Source of the DNA: a virus
Reading direction: 5' to 3' (one strand)
IMG/VR virus record: IMGVR_UViG_3300032080_000019
Location: 1-31,180 of that record
DNA length: 31,180 nucleotides
Translations under genes and position numbers: made by a program
Part shown: in pieces, positions 11,188 to 27,800 of the stretch
Numbering within the stretch: position 1 is the first letter of the stretch
Layout of the letters: every line of letters starts with the position of its first letter
The notes under the pieces: generated by a model
Seen by the model: the letters and a program-made list of their open reading frames with translations, nothing else
The model's database searches: none
Told to the model about the DNA's origin: nothing

Positions 11188-12764
11188 TATCCGGCCTCGG
11201 AGATCTGGTAAGCGACCAGTCCGGCGTCGCTTGCGTTGCTGGAGGTGATCGTGAAGCCCGTACCCGCCGTCACCACAGCACGCAAGGCACCCGTGACCGT
11301 GGCGCTTTGGCTGGATGGGAACACCAGCGTATTGGCCGTCACGCTGGTGTTCGCCACTGTTGCCGTGCCACTCGCCAGGGTAGCCGTGGACACCACACTG
11401 CGCTTATGAATTTGCGCCCCACTGCCCAGGTACTCTACTGCCGCAGTGCCGTCAGATTCGCATCGGTCGTATACGTTGCCGACGCCGCTAGTAGCCGATT
11501 GGAATGCGCCGTCTGCGTCAGGGCTCGACAGCACCCGCGCTTCGCGCACGCGCGTGTTCGTGGCCTTGTATGTCGCGCCGTCGTTGTTGATGCCGATGCC
11601 GTAGGTAGGCTGCGCCCAATGGCCCGTAGGGTCGTAGCCGGCGCGCGTGATGACGGGAAAATTGATGGTGTTGCTGTCGGTGTTCTGCGTCACCGAGTCG
11701 CTGCCGGATACAACGATGCCACCCAGGCCGGAGCGATCCACACGGGGTGTGTTCAGGGTGTTGCGCGACGCGCCATGGATGAACTTAATCCCGAAGCCGA
11801 GCGCGCGACTTACGATGGGGGAGTTGATCGTGCCGTCTTCGCCGAACGTGTCGATGCCCTCGCCCACCTCGTCGATCACCGCGTTATCGATTTGGTAGAA
11901 CCGCGTACCGGCGTTGATGTTGATACCGTCCGTCTGCGGACCGTAAGCGGCGAGAAACGCCGGGGTCCACCACAGCTTTTTGATGTCCGGCGAGATAATG
12001 AAAAGGCGCTCGGTGGCCACGCCGCCAATGCGGAAATCGTCGGTCAGAATCCCGGTCAACTGTCCGCCGCTGATATTTCGGTCCAGCGTGCAATCGTGCA
12101 GGTGCGGATTCGTGATCCACACGTCGGTGCTGCTGTCGACGAGGATGCACGCGCCGGCATTCAAACCGGAAATCTCGACGTTCTCCAGGTGGATATTTTG
12201 CGCGCCCCGAACCGTAAGCGCGTACGACCAGGCATTGACGCCGCAAGTACCCTCGATTGTTACGTCACGCAAGGTGACGTTTTGCACATTTTCCAGCGAC
12301 AGAACAACGGACGTTGGCCCCAGCGTTTTGGTCGTGGCGGTGAAATCCGCGGAGCTGAATTTGAGCGTGCCCGGACCCACCAGGGTGGAGTTACTAGGGA
12401 TCTGCGTCGTACTGGTGATCTCGTACTCGCCACCGTTCAGCATCACCCCGCCCCCGACGTCCAGCGCGTCTTGCAACGTGGCGTAGTCGGCTGCGCTAAC
12501 CGCATTGGACCCGTCGAAAAACGAGATGGGGCCGCGGGTACCGAACACCTGTCCCTGGATCGACACCTGGATAAAATACTTGCCGTTGGGGGCAGCGAAA
12601 CCGAACCCGCCCAGGTTGTCTGTGGTGAGCGGGTTATCTATTTGCGCGCCGGCCGCGTCGTAGATGACTGCCTCGGTTTGGCCATCTGCCGCGAGCACCA
12701 GCACGATGGCGCCGGATACTACATTGCCCTCGAGGTCAAACACTACATCGCTTTTGTATTCCAT
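11187..12764 (-). CDS. Beta-helix tailspike
   Basis: A 525-residue protein. Residues 1-82 form a beta domain common at the N-terminus of phage fibres and spikes (DLEGNVVSGAIVLVLAADG, then NPLTTDNLGGFGF and PNGKYFIQV). From about 90 the sequence has short repeated beta strands with Asn/Val/Ile ladders, typical of a right-handed parallel beta-helix (NVTLRDVTIEG; NIHLENVEISG). The last 75 residues are Ser/Thr/Val-rich and may trimerise. Spikes of this kind often depolymerise or bind surface polysaccharide; catalytic residues cannot be assigned. It follows the tape measure, with AAGGAAAACG before its ATG. Confidence 0.82.
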   Translation of the reverse strand: MEYKSDVVFDLEGNVVSGAIVLVLAADGQTEAVIYDAAGAQIDNPLTTDNLGGFGFAAPNGKYFIQVSIQGQVFGTRGPISFFDGSNAVSAADYATLQDALDVGGGVMLNGGEYEITSTTQIPSNSTLVGPGTLKFSSADFTATTKTLGPTSVVLSLENVQNVTLRDVTIEGTCGVNAWSYALTVRGAQNIHLENVEISGLNAGACILVDSSTDVWITNPHLHDCTLDRNISGGQLTGILTDDFRIGGVATERLFIISPDIKKLWWTPAFLAAYGPQTDGININAGTRFYQIDNAVIDEVGEGIDTFGEDGTINSPIVSRALGFGIKFIHGASRNTLNTPRVDRSGLGGIVVSGSDSVTQNTDSNTINFPVITRAGYDPTGHWAQPTYGIGINNDGATYKATNTRVREARVLSSPDADGAFQSATSGVGNVYDRCESDGTAAVEYLGSGAQIHKRSVVSTATLASGTATVANTSVTANTLVFPSSQSATVTGALRAVVTAGTGFTITSSNASDAGLVAYQISEAG

Positions 12765-19538: not shown

Positions 19539-19878
19539 GGGTGGTGTACTCCGTTATCACGAACTCTATCCACTCGCGCCGGCCAATCTCCACGGGTGGG
19601 CTGGAAATCTGGTACACCTCGTCGATGTCGTTGTGCACGATCACGCGCATGGCCGAGTCCACGCCGCGCATGAAACGCATCCGTACGCGGGCGGTGCGGT
19701 CAGCGACGCGAGCGCCGTTGCGCACCTGCTCGCTCTTGCTGGGCAAGGTGTCCTGCACCTGGGCCGGCAGCCGCGCGAAAATCACGTCCCACTCGTCGAT
19801 CGGCTGCAAGCCGTAGCCGTTGTCTACCATGCGCTGGCGCTGCAGGCTTACGCGGCGGTCGAGATCCGCGCCCCTCAT
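19525..19878 (-). CDS. Head closure / head-tail adaptor (SPP1 gp16-like)
   Basis: A 117-residue protein from the ATG at 19878 (MRGADLDRRVSLQRQRMVDN). The LDRRVSLQRQ start, the DEWDVIFARLPAQV segment and the RVRMRFMRGVDSAMRVIVHN segment match the phage head-tail joining family (SPP1 gp16/HK97 gp7-like), a beta-barrel ring that closes the connector. It overlaps the gp6-like gene by ATGA. Confidence 0.85.
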   Translation of the reverse strand: MRGADLDRRVSLQRQRMVDNGYGLQPIDEWDVIFARLPAQVQDTLPSKSEQVRNGARVADRTARVRMRFMRGVDSAMRVIVHNDIDEVYQISSPPVEIGRREWIEFVITEYTTHGDT

Positions 19879-20441
19879 ACATACACCATATACGGGTGCC
19901 ACAACCAGCTCATGAAATCCTCGGGCAAAGGCTGCACAGTCACGCCGGCGGTGAGCGCTTCCCGGTTCTCGTACATCGCGGCGATTGCCATCAGCATCCA
20001 CATTTTCAGCTGCGCCGGAACGCTCGCGGCGTCCGCATAGCCTACCTCCACGCGCACGGTGCGCGGGCTGCTGGGCTGTGCCTCGGGCCACACGCCGCCG
20101 TAGGGCAGCCCGATGATGGCCGGCTCGACGAACGAGTCGACCGCCAGGTCGGCCAGGTCGATCGGCTGCGTGGTGCCGGAGGTGTCCAGGTACGTCACGC
20201 CCACCAGTTGTCGGAAAGGCGCCACAGGTACGCGCAGGCCGAAGCCCCACAGTTTCGACGCGAACTCAATCGTTTGCGCCATGAGGAGCCGGTTTGTGCG
20301 TTTCTCGAGCATGCCGCGCGCCGCCGCGATCATCATGCTGATCTGTGCGTCCTCGTCGTCGAAAACCACCCGGAGGTGGGCTTTCGCCTCCTCCAGGGTG
20401 ATCGGCTCGGCGGCCGGCGGGATGACGACTTTGTAGGCCAT
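19875..20441 (-). CDS. Head-tail connector, gp6-like (QLRG family)
   Basis: A 188-residue protein from the ATG at 20441 (MAYKVVIPPAAEPITLEEAK). The segment AHLRVVFDDEDAQISMMIAA followed by ARGMLEKRTNR is the signature of HK97 gp6-like connectors, and the C-terminal helix QLKMWMLMAIAAMYENRE is also typical. It would form the ring under the portal. A longer in-frame start at 20543 was not used because it lies inside the preceding gene and the family begins near MAYK. Confidence 0.88.
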   Translation of the reverse strand: MAYKVVIPPAAEPITLEEAKAHLRVVFDDEDAQISMMIAAARGMLEKRTNRLLMAQTIEFASKLWGFGLRVPVAPFRQLVGVTYLDTSGTTQPIDLADLAVDSFVEPAIIGLPYGGVWPEAQPSSPRTVRVEVGYADAASVPAQLKMWMLMAIAAMYENREALTAGVTVQPLPEDFMSWLWHPYMVYV

Positions 20442-20449
20442 GCCAGATC

Positions 20450-22249
20450 CTATAGGTAAGTTATCGTTTCGGGGCCGATGTTCGGGCGCCGGTACTGCCT
20501 CATGTCGGCGGGCGCGCGGGTGAACTTCCCGGCACCTCGACAAGGGGATGATAACGCAAGCGTGGCCCTCGTGGGGTTGCTGAAATCCACTTGGGGGTCA
20601 AGATCGATGTTCGCTGCGCAGCCGGGCGCGGCATTCAGAGCCATTTCCACCCCCGCAATCAACGCGACAGGGGCCGGATTTCCAGCGCCTGTAAACACGT
20701 CATTGTTTTGGAAAAGCTGAACGCCTACAGGCTCACCAGATTGATTAACTTGGAACCAAGCCGCGCTAGATGCGCGGTGATAGCAAATGTTGTTGATAAA
20801 CTCCACCGTGCCGTCCGCAATGACAGGTTCAGGGACAGGGTAATTGTACGGATTAAACGTAGAAAGTCGAATTATATGGCCAACAGGATCAACAAACATA
20901 TTCTCTACTAGCCGCACACCGGTAGGGACATTGCGTATATACGCATCATCGCCCAATGCGGACGATCCCGAGCGGTAAAGCAATTCGGCCGTTATGGCAA
21001 TCGCATGGCTCACCCCTACGCGCGTATTCGTTAGTCGCATATTGCGCCATACGTTGCGGTAGACAAACGGAGCGCCATTAAGCTGGCTGCAAATTGTTTG
21101 ACCATCAAAATCACATTCAATAATGTAGCTTGATGGCGTTGTTGGGTATGTCGTACATGCGCGCCCGTAGGTATGCCATGTATCCCAAAATGCTTTGCAT
21201 CGATAGAATCCGCAATTGTCGGTAGGGTATCGATTATCTACATATGCCCCCATCGTAAAAGCAACGTGCATACTATTAATCGACGTGCAATATTCTGCGC
21301 GGCAATTAGTTGCGTTGTCGCGGAACGCAAAGGCGTCCGGTGCGTTGATCAGGTAATTGTAGGTGTTGTCCGGCTCCTGCTCTTGCGGCGACGTGCCCAT
21401 GTCAGCTACGCACCCGGTGAATAGCACGTTCGACACTTCCACCTTGGGCAGGGCGCTGTTGTCGCCGGCCGGGGCCGCGCGGAACCCGCCAGTGTAGAAG
21501 TATTTCGCCACGCAATTACGGAAAGTGATATTGGCGGTGGGGGCGGTGTCATTCACGCTCGATTGCGCTACAAACGCGGTGCTGTTCGCGCCCCATGCTT
21601 CGATGTTCTGCACCAGCACATTCGAACACTGCCGCAGCAGGAGGCACGTTTGCGCGCCAACCGTAGCTTGATCGCCTGCCAACAAGGCAAGACCGTTGTA
21701 GAACGTGGGCGGGTTCACCGTAGTGGACCCGGTGTAGACGTACAGCTTGTACCCCATGGCGCCTTGTGAGGGCCACCAGATATCATCATTGTCGAGGTTA
21801 GCGGTGATGCTGGCCAGGTCGTCGGCCGATGGCGTCTTGGCGCGGCGCCGCGCCGTGCCGACCGTGCGCTGGGTCCGCAGGTTGCCAGCCTTGTTGGCCC
21901 CCGTCCATAAGCGTTTGACCCGTGAGGTGGCACTCGCTCCGTTGCCGAACAGCTTTGACCAGACGCCGGCCCCCTCATGCGCCCACCCGGTGGCGCCGGA
22001 ATTTTCGTAGGTCAGCCCGTCGAGCACGGGCAAGCCGCCGGTTCCGTATGCATCTACCGTAATATTGTCTTTCGAGGCGATCGCGTCGAAGAAACCGCCC
22101 GAAGGATCGAAAGAGCAGTCCCGCTTCAGCAGGATGGTGTCGCCGCTTGCCGCCAAGGCCACCGCACGATCCCAAGTTTTGACAGGCAAAGCCTGCGTTC
22201 CTGAGTTAGTGTCAACGCCGTTGACAGAATCGGCGCAAATCGTCGCCAT
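20450..22249 (-). CDS. Beta-helix virion protein inserted in the head region
   Basis: A 599-residue protein resembling right-handed parallel beta-helix surface proteins: an N-terminal cap motif (GVDTNSGTQALPVKTWDRAV, then ASGDTILLK) and repeated short strands with Asn/Cys (NVLVQNIEAWG; ITFRNCVAKYF; VLFTGCVADMG). It is rich in cysteine compared with its neighbours. Unlike usual tailspikes it lies between capsid and connector genes, so a capsid-surface place is possible. The stretch about 20700-21400 is clearly AT-richer than the surroundings (several 60-base lines near 43-46% GC by hand count), suggesting recent acquisition. The start overlaps the preceding stop by ATGA. Substrate and active site are unknown. 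Confidence 0.75.
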   Translation of the reverse strand: MATICADSVNGVDTNSGTQALPVKTWDRAVALAASGDTILLKRDCSFDPSGGFFDAIASKDNITVDAYGTGGLPVLDGLTYENSGATGWAHEGAGVWSKLFGNGASATSRVKRLWTGANKAGNLRTQRTVGTARRRAKTPSADDLASITANLDNDDIWWPSQGAMGYKLYVYTGSTTVNPPTFYNGLALLAGDQATVGAQTCLLLRQCSNVLVQNIEAWGANSTAFVAQSSVNDTAPTANITFRNCVAKYFYTGGFRAAPAGDNSALPKVEVSNVLFTGCVADMGTSPQEQEPDNTYNYLINAPDAFAFRDNATNCRAEYCTSINSMHVAFTMGAYVDNRYPTDNCGFYRCKAFWDTWHTYGRACTTYPTTPSSYIIECDFDGQTICSQLNGAPFVYRNVWRNMRLTNTRVGVSHAIAITAELLYRSGSSALGDDAYIRNVPTGVRLVENMFVDPVGHIIRLSTFNPYNYPVPEPVIADGTVEFINNICYHRASSAAWFQVNQSGEPVGVQLFQNNDVFTGAGNPAPVALIAGVEMALNAAPGCAANIDLDPQVDFSNPTRATLALSSPCRGAGKFTRAPADMRQYRRPNIGPETITYL

Positions 22250-23526
22250 CAGGTGCTCCGGGCCTTCAGCCGGGCCGTGCCGCTCGCCACCACCGCGTTC
22301 ACCGCGCCCGTCTCCACCACGTCGCGCGACGACAGCCGCTCGCCTGGGCGCAGCTTGAACGTGCCCTCGGTGTCGGCATCCGTTGCCGTGGCCGCCGCGC
22401 CAATGTTGATCAGGATATCCGCCGCCGAGTCGTTCGCCAGGAACCAGCTGTTCGCGTTGGCGGGGATGACCGTTTGGCTAGTCATCGTGACCAGCATCGA
22501 ACGATTCGTGCCCGGCCGCTTGGCCGGCTGGATGCGCAGGCCCGCGGTATCGCCGCGCAGACGGTCCCAGGTACCGGCATCGTTCAGCACGTAGCCGCCG
22601 ATAGCGAGCAAGTGCGAGCCCCCGGTGGATTCCTGCTCATTACTGAACATGGACAATGAGTTACTGTGACCGTCCGCGCCCGTCGTAGGGGTGCCATACG
22701 CCCGCGCAAGCAAATTGCCCCGAACGTCCGTAGCGAGGGGTGCCATCTGGCCCGCAGTACGAGCGGCCGACGCGCCGTAGTACATGCCGCCGATAAGCAT
22801 CGACTTCGTCGCCGCGGCGCCGATGGCTGCCGGGCCCACCGTCCTCGCGATCTCTTGCGACGCGATCACCTGGGCCTTGTTCAACGATACGACCGTGTTC
22901 ACCCCAGTAGGGTCGCTGGCGGGCGCGTCGGCCCTTGTGCCCACCGTTGCGTCGGCGCCTTCGGCGATGGTTACCGTGCCGTCGAACGTCCCGCCGCTGC
23001 CGCCCCCGCCTTCGATCTTGTAGGGCTCGCCAGTGGCGGGGTCGATCGGAACGAAGTAGAGCGGCGAGGACTTCATGCTACCCGCCACCACCCCGGGCTT
23101 GATGGTCAAGCTTCCAGTGTTGACAGTGAAGCGCACGCGCGTGTCGGCCAGGAACACCCCGATGGTAGAGGTGCCGCCCACCAGGGCGGTCGGCGTGGCC
23201 GTGGTGCCGTCCGGGTTGATCACCGCCCAGTTGCCCGAGATACCGCTCGTGGCCACAAGTCCCAGGGTTACCCCGGAAGGCACCGTCACATCGGCCGTCT
23301 GGTTGGCGCTAATCGTTTGGTTACCCGGCAAGTTCGCACCGGAGCCCAAGCCGTTACCCGGCGAGGGGCGGAACTCCACCCGGCCGCCGGTCAGATCGTA
23401 GGTGGCGTTGCGGTTGGCAATCAGTTGATCCGCCACGGGGTCATCGACCCAGATAATTGCACCGGGGGAGAAGTACCCGCCCCCGGGCACGGAGTATGTC
23501 GCCAGCAATTTGATCTGTTTCGACAC
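22249..23526 (-). CDS. Putative head-decoration protein sharing an N-terminal module with its neighbour
   Basis: A 425-residue protein with GTG start at 23526 behind GAGGAG. Residues 1-50 (KLLATYSVPGGGYFSPG, ending NATYDLTGG) and a following beta domain (VTVPSGVTLGLVATSGISG up to DTRVRF, near residue 130) are clearly related to the start of the SGNH protein upstream. The middle is Gly/Ala/Thr-rich with a GGGGSGGT linker, and the C-terminal 80 residues form another beta domain (SWFLANDSAADILINIG). It may be a capsid-bound fibre with a distal binding domain. No named family is certain. Confidence 0.65.
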   Translation of the reverse strand: MSKQIKLLATYSVPGGGYFSPGAIIWVDDPVADQLIANRNATYDLTGGRVEFRPSPGNGLGSGANLPGNQTISANQTADVTVPSGVTLGLVATSGISGNWAVINPDGTTATPTALVGGTSTIGVFLADTRVRFTVNTGSLTIKPGVVAGSMKSSPLYFVPIDPATGEPYKIEGGGGSGGTFDGTVTIAEGADATVGTRADAPASDPTGVNTVVSLNKAQVIASQEIARTVGPAAIGAAATKSMLIGGMYYGASAARTAGQMAPLATDVRGNLLARAYGTPTTGADGHSNSLSMFSNEQESTGGSHLLAIGGYVLNDAGTWDRLRGDTAGLRIQPAKRPGTNRSMLVTMTSQTVIPANANSWFLANDSAADILINIGAAATATDADTEGTFKLRPGERLSSRDVVETGAVNAVVASGTARLKARST

Positions 23527-23539
23527 GTCGCTCTCCTCG

Positions 23540-25576
23540 TCAGATGGCTTTAGCGATCACGGATACCATGGATTGATCTGCGGGTCCCGTGGGGTGCAGG
23601 CCATCAGCGTAGATCGAGGTATTGCCGGGGGTGCCCATGGCCTCGACGTCGAGCAGGTCGATAAGGGTATCAGCCCCCATCCCGCTGGCGCCCAAGCCGG
23701 CCACTTGGCTCCGTACGCTGCGCAGTGTTGCAGCAGAGGCCCCGTTAGTGGCCAGCTCGTTGCAAAGTACCACTTTCATGCCCGCAGCCTTCAGCGCGGC
23801 CACGCAATCCTTAATATTCTGCGTGGTCTGTGCCGCCGACGCCCCGCTCGAAACGTCGTTCACCCCGCCGAGGAACGTGGCGACATTTTTTGCGGCCGGG
23901 TTGTACAGCGACGCCGCAAACGGAATCGTCTTGAGCGTGCCGGACGCCAACAGGTTGGGTGTTTGCGCGCCGTAGCTACCCAGGCCGTAGATGCGGTAAT
24001 CCTTGCCCAGTACCTCGGCCAGCAAAGTGGGCAGGGCCATAAAAGGCGCCGTCAGCGGATGCCGCGATGCCGTGCGACTGTCGCCAACCATGAACACCTG
24101 ATCGAGCACCTGCGGTCGGATATCGAAGCGGGCGTATGCGGAGTACCGCAGAGCTTTCGCTTGCGCAGCGGTGGCCGCGGCCTTCGCAACGCCGAAACCG
24201 AACACCATGTGGCTGGCATAGTTGCCTGTCGCGGCCGGCGAGTAGCAGAACAGCCACCCACTGCTATACGTGTTCGTGTCACTGTGCGTTTCCGTGCTGG
24301 CGTCCTCGTTCACGTTGATCGTTACGGTCGTCGGCGCGCACACCACCGTGAGGGCTTGGGCTTGGGCATTCACGCCAAGGGGCGCTCCGCTTTGCAGTTT
24401 GGTAAAGCTCCGGTTCAGGTATAGCCGGCCGTTGGTTTCCGTGGTCAGCGACCACATGCGCGACGCCGGCAGCGTGCGATCGCCCAGGGCGAACAACGTA
24501 GCGGATGCAGTAGTGGCGGCATTGCCGCGCGCGTATGCAAACACCGTGAAAGCGCCGCTGGCGACGCCGAAACCGGAATCCAGGTTCGTGCCCGTGAAAG
24601 TGCCGTTTGGCGCGCGTAGCGTGCGCGGCGCACCGGCATTCGGGCCGTTACCGGTCAGGCCGAAACGCCTTTCGCTCGGATCGTACACGAAGTAAGGCGC
24701 CGGGTACGCGGGGTCTTTCGTCCAGTGGTTGCCCGCGCCGGACTGGTCATAGACCTGCGTGCACGTCGGGAACGTGCCGGCGTCAGCTTTACCGATCGCT
24801 GCAAATGCGGCGTTGTTGTCCAGCTCACCATTGGCCAGGATATTCAGGGTTGTGACCACCGGGGCACCGCCCACGGTCACCGTGATATCGACAGCCGGAC
24901 CGGTGAAGCCGGTTTTCATCGCCACCGTGCCCCAGGCGGATATGGTTGCCGCGCCCATGATGTCGGTGAACGAACCCCCGAAGCCCGCTACCTCGCCCCA
25001 CACGGCGGATCCGGCGGTTGGCGCAAGCGTCGGCTGATAAATTTTCCCGCGCGCCTGCCACACCGAATTGGCGGTGTACCCTGCCGAGGCATTGTCAGAA
25101 TTCCCGGGCGCCCGGTTGAGACCGTCCCGCGACTCCGCGAACGCAGCCGGCATGGACACGGTGTACTCGCCCGAGATGCCGCGAATACGGTAGTCCCGAT
25201 CATCCGTAAGCGACTCATTGATCAACAGCTCGCCGGCGCCGAGACTGCGCGAACGCATCACCCCGCCCCAGCTGTTGAGCGATTCCAGGACCCCCGCGGC
25301 GCCGACCGTGCCGACCACCTTCAACGATCTGCCGGAGGGTACAGTAACCGTCTGCCGGTCCAGCGAACGGACGACGAAGGGCGCCTTTGCCTCCACGGTC
25401 GGGGCCGTGGCGTAGGCCGCGCCATCACTGTAAGCTGCTGGCACGCCGCCGGTCAGGTCAGTGGTGGCGCCCACGCCGTTCGCCAGCAGTGCGTTAGCCA
25501 CATCGTCCGGCAGATCGAGAATGGTGTAGGGCGTGAAATTCTTGTACGTGGACAACAGTTTAACAGTGATGGACAT
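23540..25576 (-). CDS. SGNH-hydrolase fused to a capsid-anchor-like N-terminus
   Basis: A 678-residue, multi-domain protein. Residues 1-48 (KLLSTYKNFTPYTILDLPDD, then ATTDLTGG) are the module shared with its neighbours; a beta domain follows to about 130. Residues about 200-420 resemble the arabinofuranosidase-B-like/lectin jelly-roll region of other phage proteins (VYDQSGAGNHW). The C-terminus is an SGNH/GDSL esterase: block I GDS with Ser500, block II glycine in GLGSYG, block III GGVND with Asn573, block V DGLH with Asp658 and His661, all present. It probably deacylates a host surface glycan or lipid. Location on the capsid is inferred from the shared module and gene position. Confidence 0.82.
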   Translation of the reverse strand: MSITVKLLSTYKNFTPYTILDLPDDVANALLANGVGATTDLTGGVPAAYSDGAAYATAPTVEAKAPFVVRSLDRQTVTVPSGRSLKVVGTVGAAGVLESLNSWGGVMRSRSLGAGELLINESLTDDRDYRIRGISGEYTVSMPAAFAESRDGLNRAPGNSDNASAGYTANSVWQARGKIYQPTLAPTAGSAVWGEVAGFGGSFTDIMGAATISAWGTVAMKTGFTGPAVDITVTVGGAPVVTTLNILANGELDNNAAFAAIGKADAGTFPTCTQVYDQSGAGNHWTKDPAYPAPYFVYDPSERRFGLTGNGPNAGAPRTLRAPNGTFTGTNLDSGFGVASGAFTVFAYARGNAATTASATLFALGDRTLPASRMWSLTTETNGRLYLNRSFTKLQSGAPLGVNAQAQALTVVCAPTTVTINVNEDASTETHSDTNTYSSGWLFCYSPAATGNYASHMVFGFGVAKAAATAAQAKALRYSAYARFDIRPQVLDQVFMVGDSRTASRHPLTAPFMALPTLLAEVLGKDYRIYGLGSYGAQTPNLLASGTLKTIPFAASLYNPAAKNVATFLGGVNDVSSGASAAQTTQNIKDCVAALKAAGMKVVLCNELATNGASAATLRSVRSQVAGLGASGMGADTLIDLLDVEAMGTPGNTSIYADGLHPTGPADQSMVSVIAKAI

Positions 25577-25579
25577 GGC

Positions 25580-25903
25580 TTATTTCTTCCGCGAATGGGT
25601 GCTTTTCTTTTCGCCGGCCTTGTTTTCCGGCTCGGCGTCCATTTTGTTCTGCGGCTCGGCGTCCATCTTCTCGCCGCCCAGCAGATCATCGACGTCAGTG
25701 TCCGCTTCTGCTGCCTGCGGCGCTTTCTCGGGTGCGGGCGCCTTGGACTGTTCGACAGGGGCCGGTTCGTCTTTCACCGGGGCTGCGAGACCGACTTTTT
25801 CGAGCTCGTCAGCTTCGCCCTTCGTGACTTCCAGCTCATCGCCGAGGTGCGCATGCACGCGCCCATGCATGAAGCTGGTCAGCGCTTTAACTTTCGTTTT
25901 CAT
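25580..25903 (-). CDS. Small head fibre/decoration-like protein
   Basis: A 107-residue protein directly after the major capsid gene. The first 45 residues (KVKALTSFMHGRVHAHLGDE, then ADELEKVGLAAPV) fit the small beta module that starts many capsid-neighbouring phage proteins and is distantly like the first residues of the next two genes. The rest is Pro/Ala/Glu/Lys-rich and ends in a repeated AEPQNKMDAEPENK stretch with a basic tail, probably unstructured. It may be the minimal capsid-binding form of the module. AGGAG lies 6 bases before the ATG. Confidence 0.62.
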   Translation of the reverse strand: MKTKVKALTSFMHGRVHAHLGDELEVTKGEADELEKVGLAAPVKDEPAPVEQSKAPAPEKAPQAAEADTDVDDLLGGEKMDAEPQNKMDAEPENKAGEKKSTHSRKK

Positions 25904-25945: not shown

Positions 25946-27127
25946 TTAGGCCGCAGCCGGCAGGGCGCCTTTGATCAGCGCTTGAGGGCGGTAGATGGCC
26001 AGCGCCAGACGTTCTTCGGCCAGGATCGTCACGCGGTTGTTCACGAAGTCATCTTCGTTCTCCGTCGACACCACCACATTCGCGTTCTCGCGGTCGAAAA
26101 TCTGCGCCGACTGGCGGAAGTTACCAGCCAGGAATTGGCCTGCGGTCATGGCCAGCGTGGTGACGATACGACGGCCCCACAGCGTTGCGGCCAGCGTGCC
26201 TTGCGGGTTGCCGATCAGGTAACGGCCCTGGGTATCCTTCAGCAGTTCGATCTGCGCCCAGTTCATCGGGTGCAACACGGCGGAATCGGCCGGCAGCAGC
26301 GACAGTTCACCCTGCAGGAAGGCCAGGCGCAGACGGTCGATCGCCGTTTCGCCGGCGCCCGGGGTGTACGGGGCCACGTAGGCGGTCGCGTTGGTGTACA
26401 GACCCGGCAGGTTGTTACCCACACCGGTGCCCATCAGCAGCTGGAGGTCTTCCACGTAATCCAGGCCGTAGCGCAGGCGCTCGTCGATCATCGACTGCAG
26501 GGCCGGGGCGTCGTCCAGGATCTCGGTGGTAGCCTTGATGAAATGCGCCAGCTTGATCACCTTCGCGTCGGCCTGGGTGAACGTCAGATTCGATTCCGGC
26601 TTGCGCGTACCTTCAGCCACCGGGGCGGCGTTGTTGGTGAATACGTCCTCGCGGAAGTACTGGATCAGATTCGAATTCGTACGGCCGGGGGCGACCAGGG
26701 CGCGTACCGTCAGCGGGCGACGGGGGATTTCAAGGATGCCGGCCTGGCGATCCGGTGCGATCAGAGCGCCGGCGGAACCGCCCAGGCTGGTAATCGCCTT
26801 GACGTCGACCTGGATCTTGGAGCCGCGTTCCCATTCGCCGCGGTTCTTGAACGTTTCGCTCTCGATGAACTTGTAGCCGGCCGTTTCCGGGGTCTGCTTC
26901 TCGGTGCCGCCGCGGCGGGCCATTTTCTGCATCAGTTCGTCCAGCTCGGCGCGCGCTTCCGACTGCTTGATCATCAGCTCGTCGGTGATTTCCTTCAGCT
27001 TGTCGGACATAACCTTGTTGCCCTTGGCCAGGGCGACAGCTTCCTCGGCCTTTTCCAACACCTTGTCGTTGGCCGTATTGACGGCGCCCTTGATCTTGGT
27101 GAGTTCTTCTTGCAGTTCGTGGTCCAT
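25946..27127 (-). CDS. Major capsid protein, HK97 fold
   Basis: A 393-residue HK97-type capsid protein from the ATG at 27127 (MDHELQEELTKIKGAV), with AAAGGAAAT upstream. Residues 1-75 form a coiled-coil scaffolding (delta) domain that the neighbouring protease would remove. The mature part has typical features: GGSAGALIAPDRQAGI, a VAEGTRKPESNLTF segment with the following ATTEILDDAPAL spine helix, and a C-terminal AEERLALAIYRPQALIKG. It lies between the protease and the decoration-like genes. Confidence 0.95.
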   Translation of the reverse strand: MDHELQEELTKIKGAVNTANDKVLEKAEEAVALAKGNKVMSDKLKEITDELMIKQSEARAELDELMQKMARRGGTEKQTPETAGYKFIESETFKNRGEWERGSKIQVDVKAITSLGGSAGALIAPDRQAGILEIPRRPLTVRALVAPGRTNSNLIQYFREDVFTNNAAPVAEGTRKPESNLTFTQADAKVIKLAHFIKATTEILDDAPALQSMIDERLRYGLDYVEDLQLLMGTGVGNNLPGLYTNATAYVAPYTPGAGETAIDRLRLAFLQGELSLLPADSAVLHPMNWAQIELLKDTQGRYLIGNPQGTLAATLWGRRIVTTLAMTAGQFLAGNFRQSAQIFDRENANVVVSTENEDDFVNNRVTILAEERLALAIYRPQALIKGALPAAA

Positions 27128-27137
27128 GGTATTTCCT

Positions 27138-27800
27138 TTATGGGGTGAGTTTGAATTCGCGCAGGGCGCGCAGTGCTGCGTCGCGTTGTTCGCCACCGGG
27201 CTCACCCCGGGAAAGCAGTTTGGCGTAGCCGCCCGCGACAATACAAGCGGCTTCGCTTTTGGAGAAACCTACATCCCGCAGGTAGTCTTCAAATTCTCGG
27301 ATAGTGGGGCGCCGACCAGACTCGATCATGCTCTTGACGTCGGCAATCCGGGCGTCATCATGCGCGGGGTTGGTCACCACGCTGATCTCCACCAGGTCGA
27401 GCTCGAGCAGCCGGTTGTGCCCGCTCTTGCGGTCCATCTCGTTACGCTTGACGCGATAGCCGATGGACAGGCCGGTGATCGACTTAGTTTTCATGCCCTT
27501 GTGCGCCAGGCGCGCGTACGGCGCGTCGTCCAGCCACAGTTCGGCGCCGCCAAACAGGCCGTGGTCGTCTTCCTTCAGCTCGGGCCAGTGGCCGATCGGC
27601 TGGTCCTTCTGGTGCTGCCAGAGCGCGGGCACGGTACGGCCAAGGCTGGACCACGCGCGCAATGATTTTTCGAAGGCGCCGGGCTCGACGATATCCCGCA
27701 CCTTGTCGGGGGTCGAGAATACCGAACCGTAGCCCGAAAAATGGCCGGTGTCGGTCAAGCTTTTGAGCTCGAGCTCGATGGACTTATGCAGGATTGTCAT
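27138..27800 (-). CDS. Prohead maturation protease (S78/HK97 gp4 family)
   Basis: A 220-residue serine protease of the herpesvirus-like fold. Visible motifs are GHFSGYGSVFSTPDKVRDIV, LWQHQKDQPIG with candidate His63, SITGLSIGYRV with candidate Ser112, and LVEISVVTNPAHDDA. It cleaves the scaffolding domain off the capsid protein during maturation. Its start overlaps the portal end by 17 bases; AAGGAAACG precedes the ATG. Confidence 0.93.
   Translation of the reverse strand: MTILHKSIELELKSLTDTGHFSGYGSVFSTPDKVRDIVEPGAFEKSLRAWSSLGRTVPALWQHQKDQPIGHWPELKEDDHGLFGGAELWLDDAPYARLAHKGMKTKSITGLSIGYRVKRNEMDRKSGHNRLLELDLVEISVVTNPAHDDARIADVKSMIESGRRPTIREFEDYLRDVGFSKSEAACIVAGGYAKLLSRGEPGGEQRDAALRALREFKLTP

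Follow-up and report, generated by a model that had tools for sequence, protein, structure and literature searches.

In phage lambda the gene for gpFI lies directly behind the capsid gene, and we know of no case in which a gpFI domain carries an enzyme or a display body. The protein is thought to act via the major head protein (PMC7889075). The head spikes of the Rhodobacter capsulatus gene transfer agent (RcGTA), a two-part appendage made of a base (Rcc01079) and a fibre (Rcc01080), are N-terminally anchored and bind capsule polysaccharide (PMC7296036, PMC10218006), so that head appendages can serve adsorption. Beside the capsid gene of JBD30 a small protein of beta strands and a helix is encoded (gp39; PMC11445458), and in T4 Hoc beta-sandwich domains are joined to a capsid-binding domain (reviewed in PMC7602432). 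Descriptions of phage enzymes that attack bacterial capsules usually place them on tails, and virion proteins with SGNH-type or polysaccharide-deacetylating enzymes have been reported for phages Moo19 and B2 (PMC11654681), Aristophanes (PMC8471582) and Possum (PMC9569702). Here we consider the slot between the capsid gene and the gp6-type connector gene of an IMG/VR virus record (IMGVR_UViG_3300032080_000019; 31,180 bases, hereafter the window), which holds a small protein, two proteins with a common N-terminal anchor (A and B), of which A carries an esterase, and a fourth protein (C).

We suggest that this slot is an exchangeable display cassette, in which a gpFI-like anchor holds swappable glycan-active domains on the head, and we put the probability of this reading at roughly 0.6. 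The small protein would be a gpFI/DUF7210-like capsid-binding protein. A second form of the gpFI-like fold would make up residues 1-45 of A and B, as an N-terminal anchor that docks on the capsid lattice and bears first a beta-sandwich in the manner of a stalk (module II) and next the body, which can be swapped. In A the chain would run from the lattice through anchor and beta-sandwich to the SGNH esterase, which most likely strips O-acetyl or similar ester groups from the host surface polysaccharide, be it capsule or slime; in B it would run through anchor, beta-sandwich and adaptor to the beta-helix-like C, and the pair would bind or cleave capsule or slime. Free virions might thereby hold on to, or thin, this layer before the tail engages. 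We infer the placement on the head from the position of the genes in the capsid/packaging block, from the gpFI-like predicted fold and from the presence of a further, tailspike-like gene beyond the tape measure. An annotation made earlier from the letters of the window (the first-pass annotation) had already proposed glycan-active domains displayed on the head, with a possible role on host surface or mucus glycans; the shared anchor with its exchanged bodies bears out the modular part of that idea, the head itself stays a matter of probability, and the link to mucus found no support. The window phage has kin among the prophages of soil bacteria such as Massilia, the genus that harbours, as a prophage, the relative whose host is named. 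Glycans of bacterial surfaces are more likely as the target. We propose more tentatively, and at somewhat less than even odds, that the arrangement is a general platform, in which a gpFI-like domain was duplicated as a plug-in N-terminal anchor for enzyme-docking adaptors and interchangeable enzymes, chiefly esterases, shown on the capsid surface, giving polysaccharide-modifying heads.

The cassette would work like the head fibre and decoration proteins, a known kind, the likeness being one of function. The RcGTA base differs in being a pentameric jelly-roll and the RcGTA fibre in being held by a Leu-Gly repeat, no N-terminal counterpart of which is found in the translations of A, B or C; the available parts of the RcGTA reports mention no enzyme, and those on JBD30 gp39, T5 pb10 and T4 Hoc (PMC11445458, PMC7602432) describe no enzyme bodies. 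The enzymes of Moo19, B2, Aristophanes and Possum are described as tail parts, whereas the esterase described here is joined to a domain found only in the capsid/packaging block; no head-borne phage esterase was found in the literature searched, of which coverage was partial. As for lambda gpFI (2lsm), the small gene stands behind the capsid gene; the further resemblance in the strand/helix arrangement, seen in the model of the small protein and, through its topology, in that of the anchor, is one of predicted fold only, and weak. A different kind of counterpart is Rhizobium phage P106B (KF977490, gp12-gp14), where a module II protein and two SGNH proteins follow soon after the coat gene, but as separate genes and with no 45-residue anchor identified. 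The best viral match of module II is a 187-residue P106B protein, which we take as gp12 from its length and from a hit of the module II profile (E=6.5e-9, 14 sequences searched); gp12 stands three genes after the coat gene, and the two SGNH proteins come next. The same region of P106B (L111, 6968-10661) is a row of small beta-sandwich-like genes with two SGNH esterases, annotated as hypothetical or as "lysophospholipase L1-like".

On the minus strand of the window lie all structural genes: first terminase, portal, S78 protease and capsid, then the small protein, A, B, C and the gp6 connector, and after these the neck genes, the tail tube, the tape measure, the tail-tip genes and holin/endolysin. 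All four genes that the first-pass annotation had placed between the HK97-type capsid gene and the gp6-type connector are present at their places. The features of the slot and its two boundaries are these, with model confidence given as predicted local distance difference test scores (pLDDT) from AlphaFold2 (AF2):

25946..27241, minus strand: major capsid protein, HK97-type, the reference point of the cassette (PF05065 Phage_capsid, E=2.1e-54; phrog_10)
25580..25903, minus strand: small protein, 107 amino acids, with an N-terminal DUF7210/gpFI-like domain, a charged linker and two "NK" peptide repeats (PF23843, below cut-off; phrog_2616; post-capsid conservation in 29 relatives; AF2 model)
25778..25903, minus strand: predicted folded domain of the small protein, residues 1-42 (AF2 pLDDT 86-88)
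25616..25669, minus strand: C-terminal repeat of the small protein, KMDAEPQNKMDAEPENK, which nearly all relatives keep
23540..25576, minus strand: open reading frame A, 678 amino acids, with anchor, beta-sandwich, unassigned middle and SGNH esterase
25442..25576, minus strand: anchor module of A, residues 1-45 (profile domain E=4e-21)
25130..25384, minus strand: module II of A, residues 65-149 (profile E=5e-26)
24107..25129, minus strand: middle region of A, residues 150-490, fold unassigned (homologue in phage phiAX1)
23588..24088, minus strand: SGNH/GDSL hydrolase domain of A, residues 497-663 (PF13472, E=6.1e-12; GDS, GxND and DxxHP motifs)
22249..23526, minus strand: open reading frame B, 425 amino acids, with anchor, beta-sandwich and a mosaic body without recognised enzyme (adaptor)
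23383..23526, minus strand: anchor module of B, residues 1-48 (pLDDT 91-96)
23068..23325, minus strand: module II of B, residues 68-153, predicted seven-stranded beta-sandwich (pLDDT ~91-96 over residues 70-140)
22711..22980, minus strand: segment of B, residues 183-272, common with the differently anchored adaptor of locus L030 (46% identity)
20450..22249, minus strand: open reading frame C, 599 amino acids, beta-helix-like, without anchor (PF13229, E=0.045)
19875..20444, minus strand: gp6-type head-tail connector, the other boundary of the slot (PF05135 Phage_connect_1, E=1.5e-11; phrog_442)

Over residues 1-130, A and B are 34% identical (E=1e-7, BLASTP, a single comparison), and the motifs on which a common N-terminal stretch of about 130 residues had been proposed (KLLsTY, DLTGG, VTVPSG and DxR) all lie within the alignment. 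This likeness is beyond chance, since a profile of residues 1-45 detects this element in 17 relatives as well, at domain E values of ~1e-20 to 1e-24. Searches with the whole of A and of B in IMG/VR gave no match, and for this reason the capsid was used as entry point, 49 IMG/VR loci being fetched by capsid similarity; in phage records neither B nor, by tblastn, the anchor or the small protein of a second group (group 2) found a match. In each of the 17 loci that have it, out of the 49, the anchor starts the protein encoded directly downstream of the small gene. Its consensus in the N-terminal alignment is TIRLLSTYxGxxPxTIxTLDDAxAxALxAGGxNATxDLTGG, and the 19 rows of the anchor alignment are too diverse for a pattern search. 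The shared stretch is real but not one unit: it divides into the 45-residue anchor, present in every member, and the ~90-residue beta-sandwich of module II, found in 17 of 39 anchored proteins (A, B, L002, L007, L008, L012, L026, L058, L059 and several prophages). Fibronectin type III-like spacers follow the anchor instead in L005, L006, L019 and L050 (PF00041 in L019), and other anchored proteins have a short unassigned stretch there. The module II model of B matches many small beta-sandwiches weakly, among them GOLD domains, carbohydrate-binding module families and the C-terminal domain of A223 of Sulfolobus turreted icosahedral virus, so that a stalk and a glycan-binder look alike at this level.

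Behind the anchor, bodies are exchanged between close relatives. Between loci L007, L008 and L026 identity is 92-97% for the capsids, 87-91% for the connectors and 80-100% for flanking neck and tail genes; it is 87-96% for the anchors and 81-86% for the module II regions, and the bodies of the three have no mutual match at all: that of L007 is beta-helix-like by eye (no Pfam match), that of L008 an SGNH esterase and that of L026 a divergent SGNH esterase. L013 and L014 (capsids 99%, anchors 76%) likewise have bodies without match, and L003 and L004, with connectors 95% identical, repeat the pattern. Conserved anchors next to unrelated bodies, in phages whose capsids are 94-99% identical, show that bodies are swapped. 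An SGNH/GDSL domain is found, by Pfam or iterated profile, in about 24 of the 39 anchored bodies, with weak calls in L004, L026 and L050.

The small gene is present in 30 records, the window and 29 loci; there the slot holds anchored proteins in 18, large proteins without anchor in six, including a SASA-type esterase (L009) and a Laminin_G_3 protein (L018), and nothing in the remaining six. This census points to an accessory site, often for glycan-active proteins, of which the anchor is the commonest plug. The 948-residue slot protein of L027 (14221-17064) ends in a PF23148 domain (Gp77, podophage fibre-tail adaptor; E=1.7e-8), and a small slot gene of L009 matches PF23148 weakly; where a slot lacks the anchor, its protein may be attached in a different way. 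The spread of the anchor is limited: 22 places were located in 15 of the 394 genomes from the Massilia rubra family, and it occurs in two of 399 genomes of its order. Sixteen loci of distant prophages from this family were read, and ten follow the order capsid, small gene, anchored gene, gp6. In the other six (L090, L093, L094, L099, L100 and L101) the anchored gene stands just upstream of the terminase genes, and the gap between capsid and gp6, where read, holds none, so that the gene can evidently change place within the head/packaging block.

Proteins with the anchor and without recognised enzyme (B and those of L002 and L019) are followed by an un-anchored gene whose product is beta-helix-like or BNR-like. 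The adaptors of L002 and L030 are 66% identical over their C-terminal 198 residues and unrelated at their N-termini, that of L030 being without anchor; the beta-helix-like proteins downstream are 58% identical over 561 residues. On the simplest reading of this co-inheritance, the C-terminal end of the adaptor docks the partner and the pair moves together. Residues 183-272 of B have a counterpart in the N-terminal portion of the L030 adaptor (46% identity over 90 residues, E=3e-13). The GTG start of B is preceded by a ribosome-binding-like GAGGAG, and the ATG of C overlaps the stop of B (TGATG), so that the two are probably translationally coupled. B is probably the adaptor for the co-translated, un-anchored C, which would dock on it.

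The bodies themselves agree in part with the first-pass annotation. Its SGNH esterase in A stands (PF13472, E=6e-12; residues 497-663 score 46.8 bits, cut-off 32.9), and with the catalytic blocks VGDSR, GLGSYG, GGVND and DGLHP in the translation A is, by sequence, a member of the SGNH/GDSL superfamily. The region of A read as a jelly-roll (~150-490) has no Pfam or PDB sequence match, and the glycine-rich arm of B amounts to the short linker EGGGGSGG within an otherwise mosaic protein, of which the AF2 model is confident only to residue ~147, so that later fold matches were disregarded. The resemblance of C to a beta-helix is weak (PF13229, 13.8 bits against a cut-off of 25.9). Residues 134-612 of A are 28.5% identical to a protein of Acetobacter phage phiAX1. 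This homologue of the middle and esterase (L113, 11827-13611) is annotated as a "KilA-N DNA-binding protein", a label that looks wrong.

The small gene stands directly downstream of the capsid gene in the window and in 29 relatives, and in a Mesorhizobium phage the post-capsid small gene is annotated FI. DUF7210 (PF23843) matches the small protein at E=5.7e-5 (23.0 bits, cut-off 27) and is found in 12 of 25 relatives (best E=3.7e-7), with no match in A and B by Pfam scan. That the small protein is a minimal, distant form of the anchor, as had been suggested with structure prediction as the check, is favoured by the predicted folds, although pairwise BLAST finds no match between it and A. In the AF2 model of B, made with an alignment, the anchor has strands at 2-7, 11-13, 17-19 and 24-28 and a helix at 29-37 (pLDDT 91-96), and in that of the small protein the strands lie at 2-7, 11-13, 16-18 and 23-27, the helix at 28-37 and a further strand at 40-42; compared by residue number, the order is the same and the positions agree within one residue. 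The second-ranking PDB match of the small-protein model, and its best from a phage, is the C-terminal domain of lambda gpFI (2lsm; E=0.12, probability 1.00, TM-score 0.59 by target). Sequence-profile searches of the PDB with the anchor, the small protein and the group-2 small protein gave chance-like matches only, and none of the small protein to 2lsm. A link of the group-2 small protein to JBD30 gp39 was dropped, as the similar post-capsid gp39 of JBD25 fails to align; the small genes of L086-L098 likewise gave no match to the JBD25 protein in sequence comparison.

Several of our results weigh against the display cassette. The gpFI match is weak and the fold small, and GINS, ribosomal L9 and SH3 domains score similarly in the same search; gpFI is moreover known for its work as a packaging chaperone, not for anchoring displayed proteins. 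When the profiles of the anchor and the small protein are compared, P is 0.02 (0.002-0.003 with the group-2 small protein), which is suggestive only, and one shuffled control outscored the real comparison. The body of A recurs in phiAX1 in a non-structural-looking region, and some anchor-less slots hold PF23148, a domain named after a podophage fibre-tail adaptor. This last point leads to the main rival of head display, in which the anchored proteins would attach as whiskers or other appendages at the neck or collar, in the portal/connector region near gp6, and not on the capsid lattice. The anchored gene does adjoin gp6, the Gp77 domain occurs in the slots of L027 and, weakly, L009, and for lactococcal phages a neck passage structure with carbohydrate-binding modules has been reported (PMC6669499). 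We nevertheless consider a neck site unlikely, given that the predicted fold of the anchor is common to the capsid-adjacent small protein, that the nearest solved phage relative of the small protein is a capsid-binding domain, and that PF23148 is absent from all anchored proteins scanned.

It could also be argued that the cassette consists of tail spike or fibre genes moved to the head locus, whose products assemble on the tail tip, in keeping with the tail location otherwise reported for phage SGNH esterases (PMC11654681, PMC8471582, PMC9569702). This is very improbable, as neither the 17 nor the 16 loci have an anchored gene in the tail block, and the window has a tailspike-like protein of its own, encoded beyond the tape measure. 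That protein (11190-12764, minus strand) combines Beta_helix and K1-lyase_C domains and is probably the tailspike depolymerase of the window phage. Nor do we give much weight to the proteins being non-virion ones, late soluble enzymes released at lysis or accessory cargo, with the 45-residue element serving for example capsid assembly or packaging. The empty slots in six of 30 relatives mark the genes as dispensable, and the phiAX1 context of the A body suits a free enzyme; such an enzyme needs neither an N-terminal domain conserved through repeated body swaps nor a beta-sandwich or fibronectin type III spacer behind it, and this explanation seems quite improbable.

Should heads indeed bear exchangeable esterases, the entire surface of the particle would govern adsorption and host range, and the many phages that are annotated only by tail would be worth searching for enzymes on their capsids. 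Viruses may in that case exchange surface enzymes like tools on one common handle, and a 45-residue capsid anchor that accepts unrelated cargo would be a ready-made display tag. The reading raises the testable question of whether the virions of Massilia prophages bear an esterase on their heads.

Two smaller observations may be added. The end of the small protein (25616-25669, minus strand) is a doubled peptide of the form KMxxxPxNKMxxxPxNK, kept in nearly all relatives, which could serve as a short tail for binding capsid or terminase. Five anchored genes (L064, L079, L082, L084 and L085) are found in a single genome of the Massilia family (G142), where they belong to several related prophages side by side.

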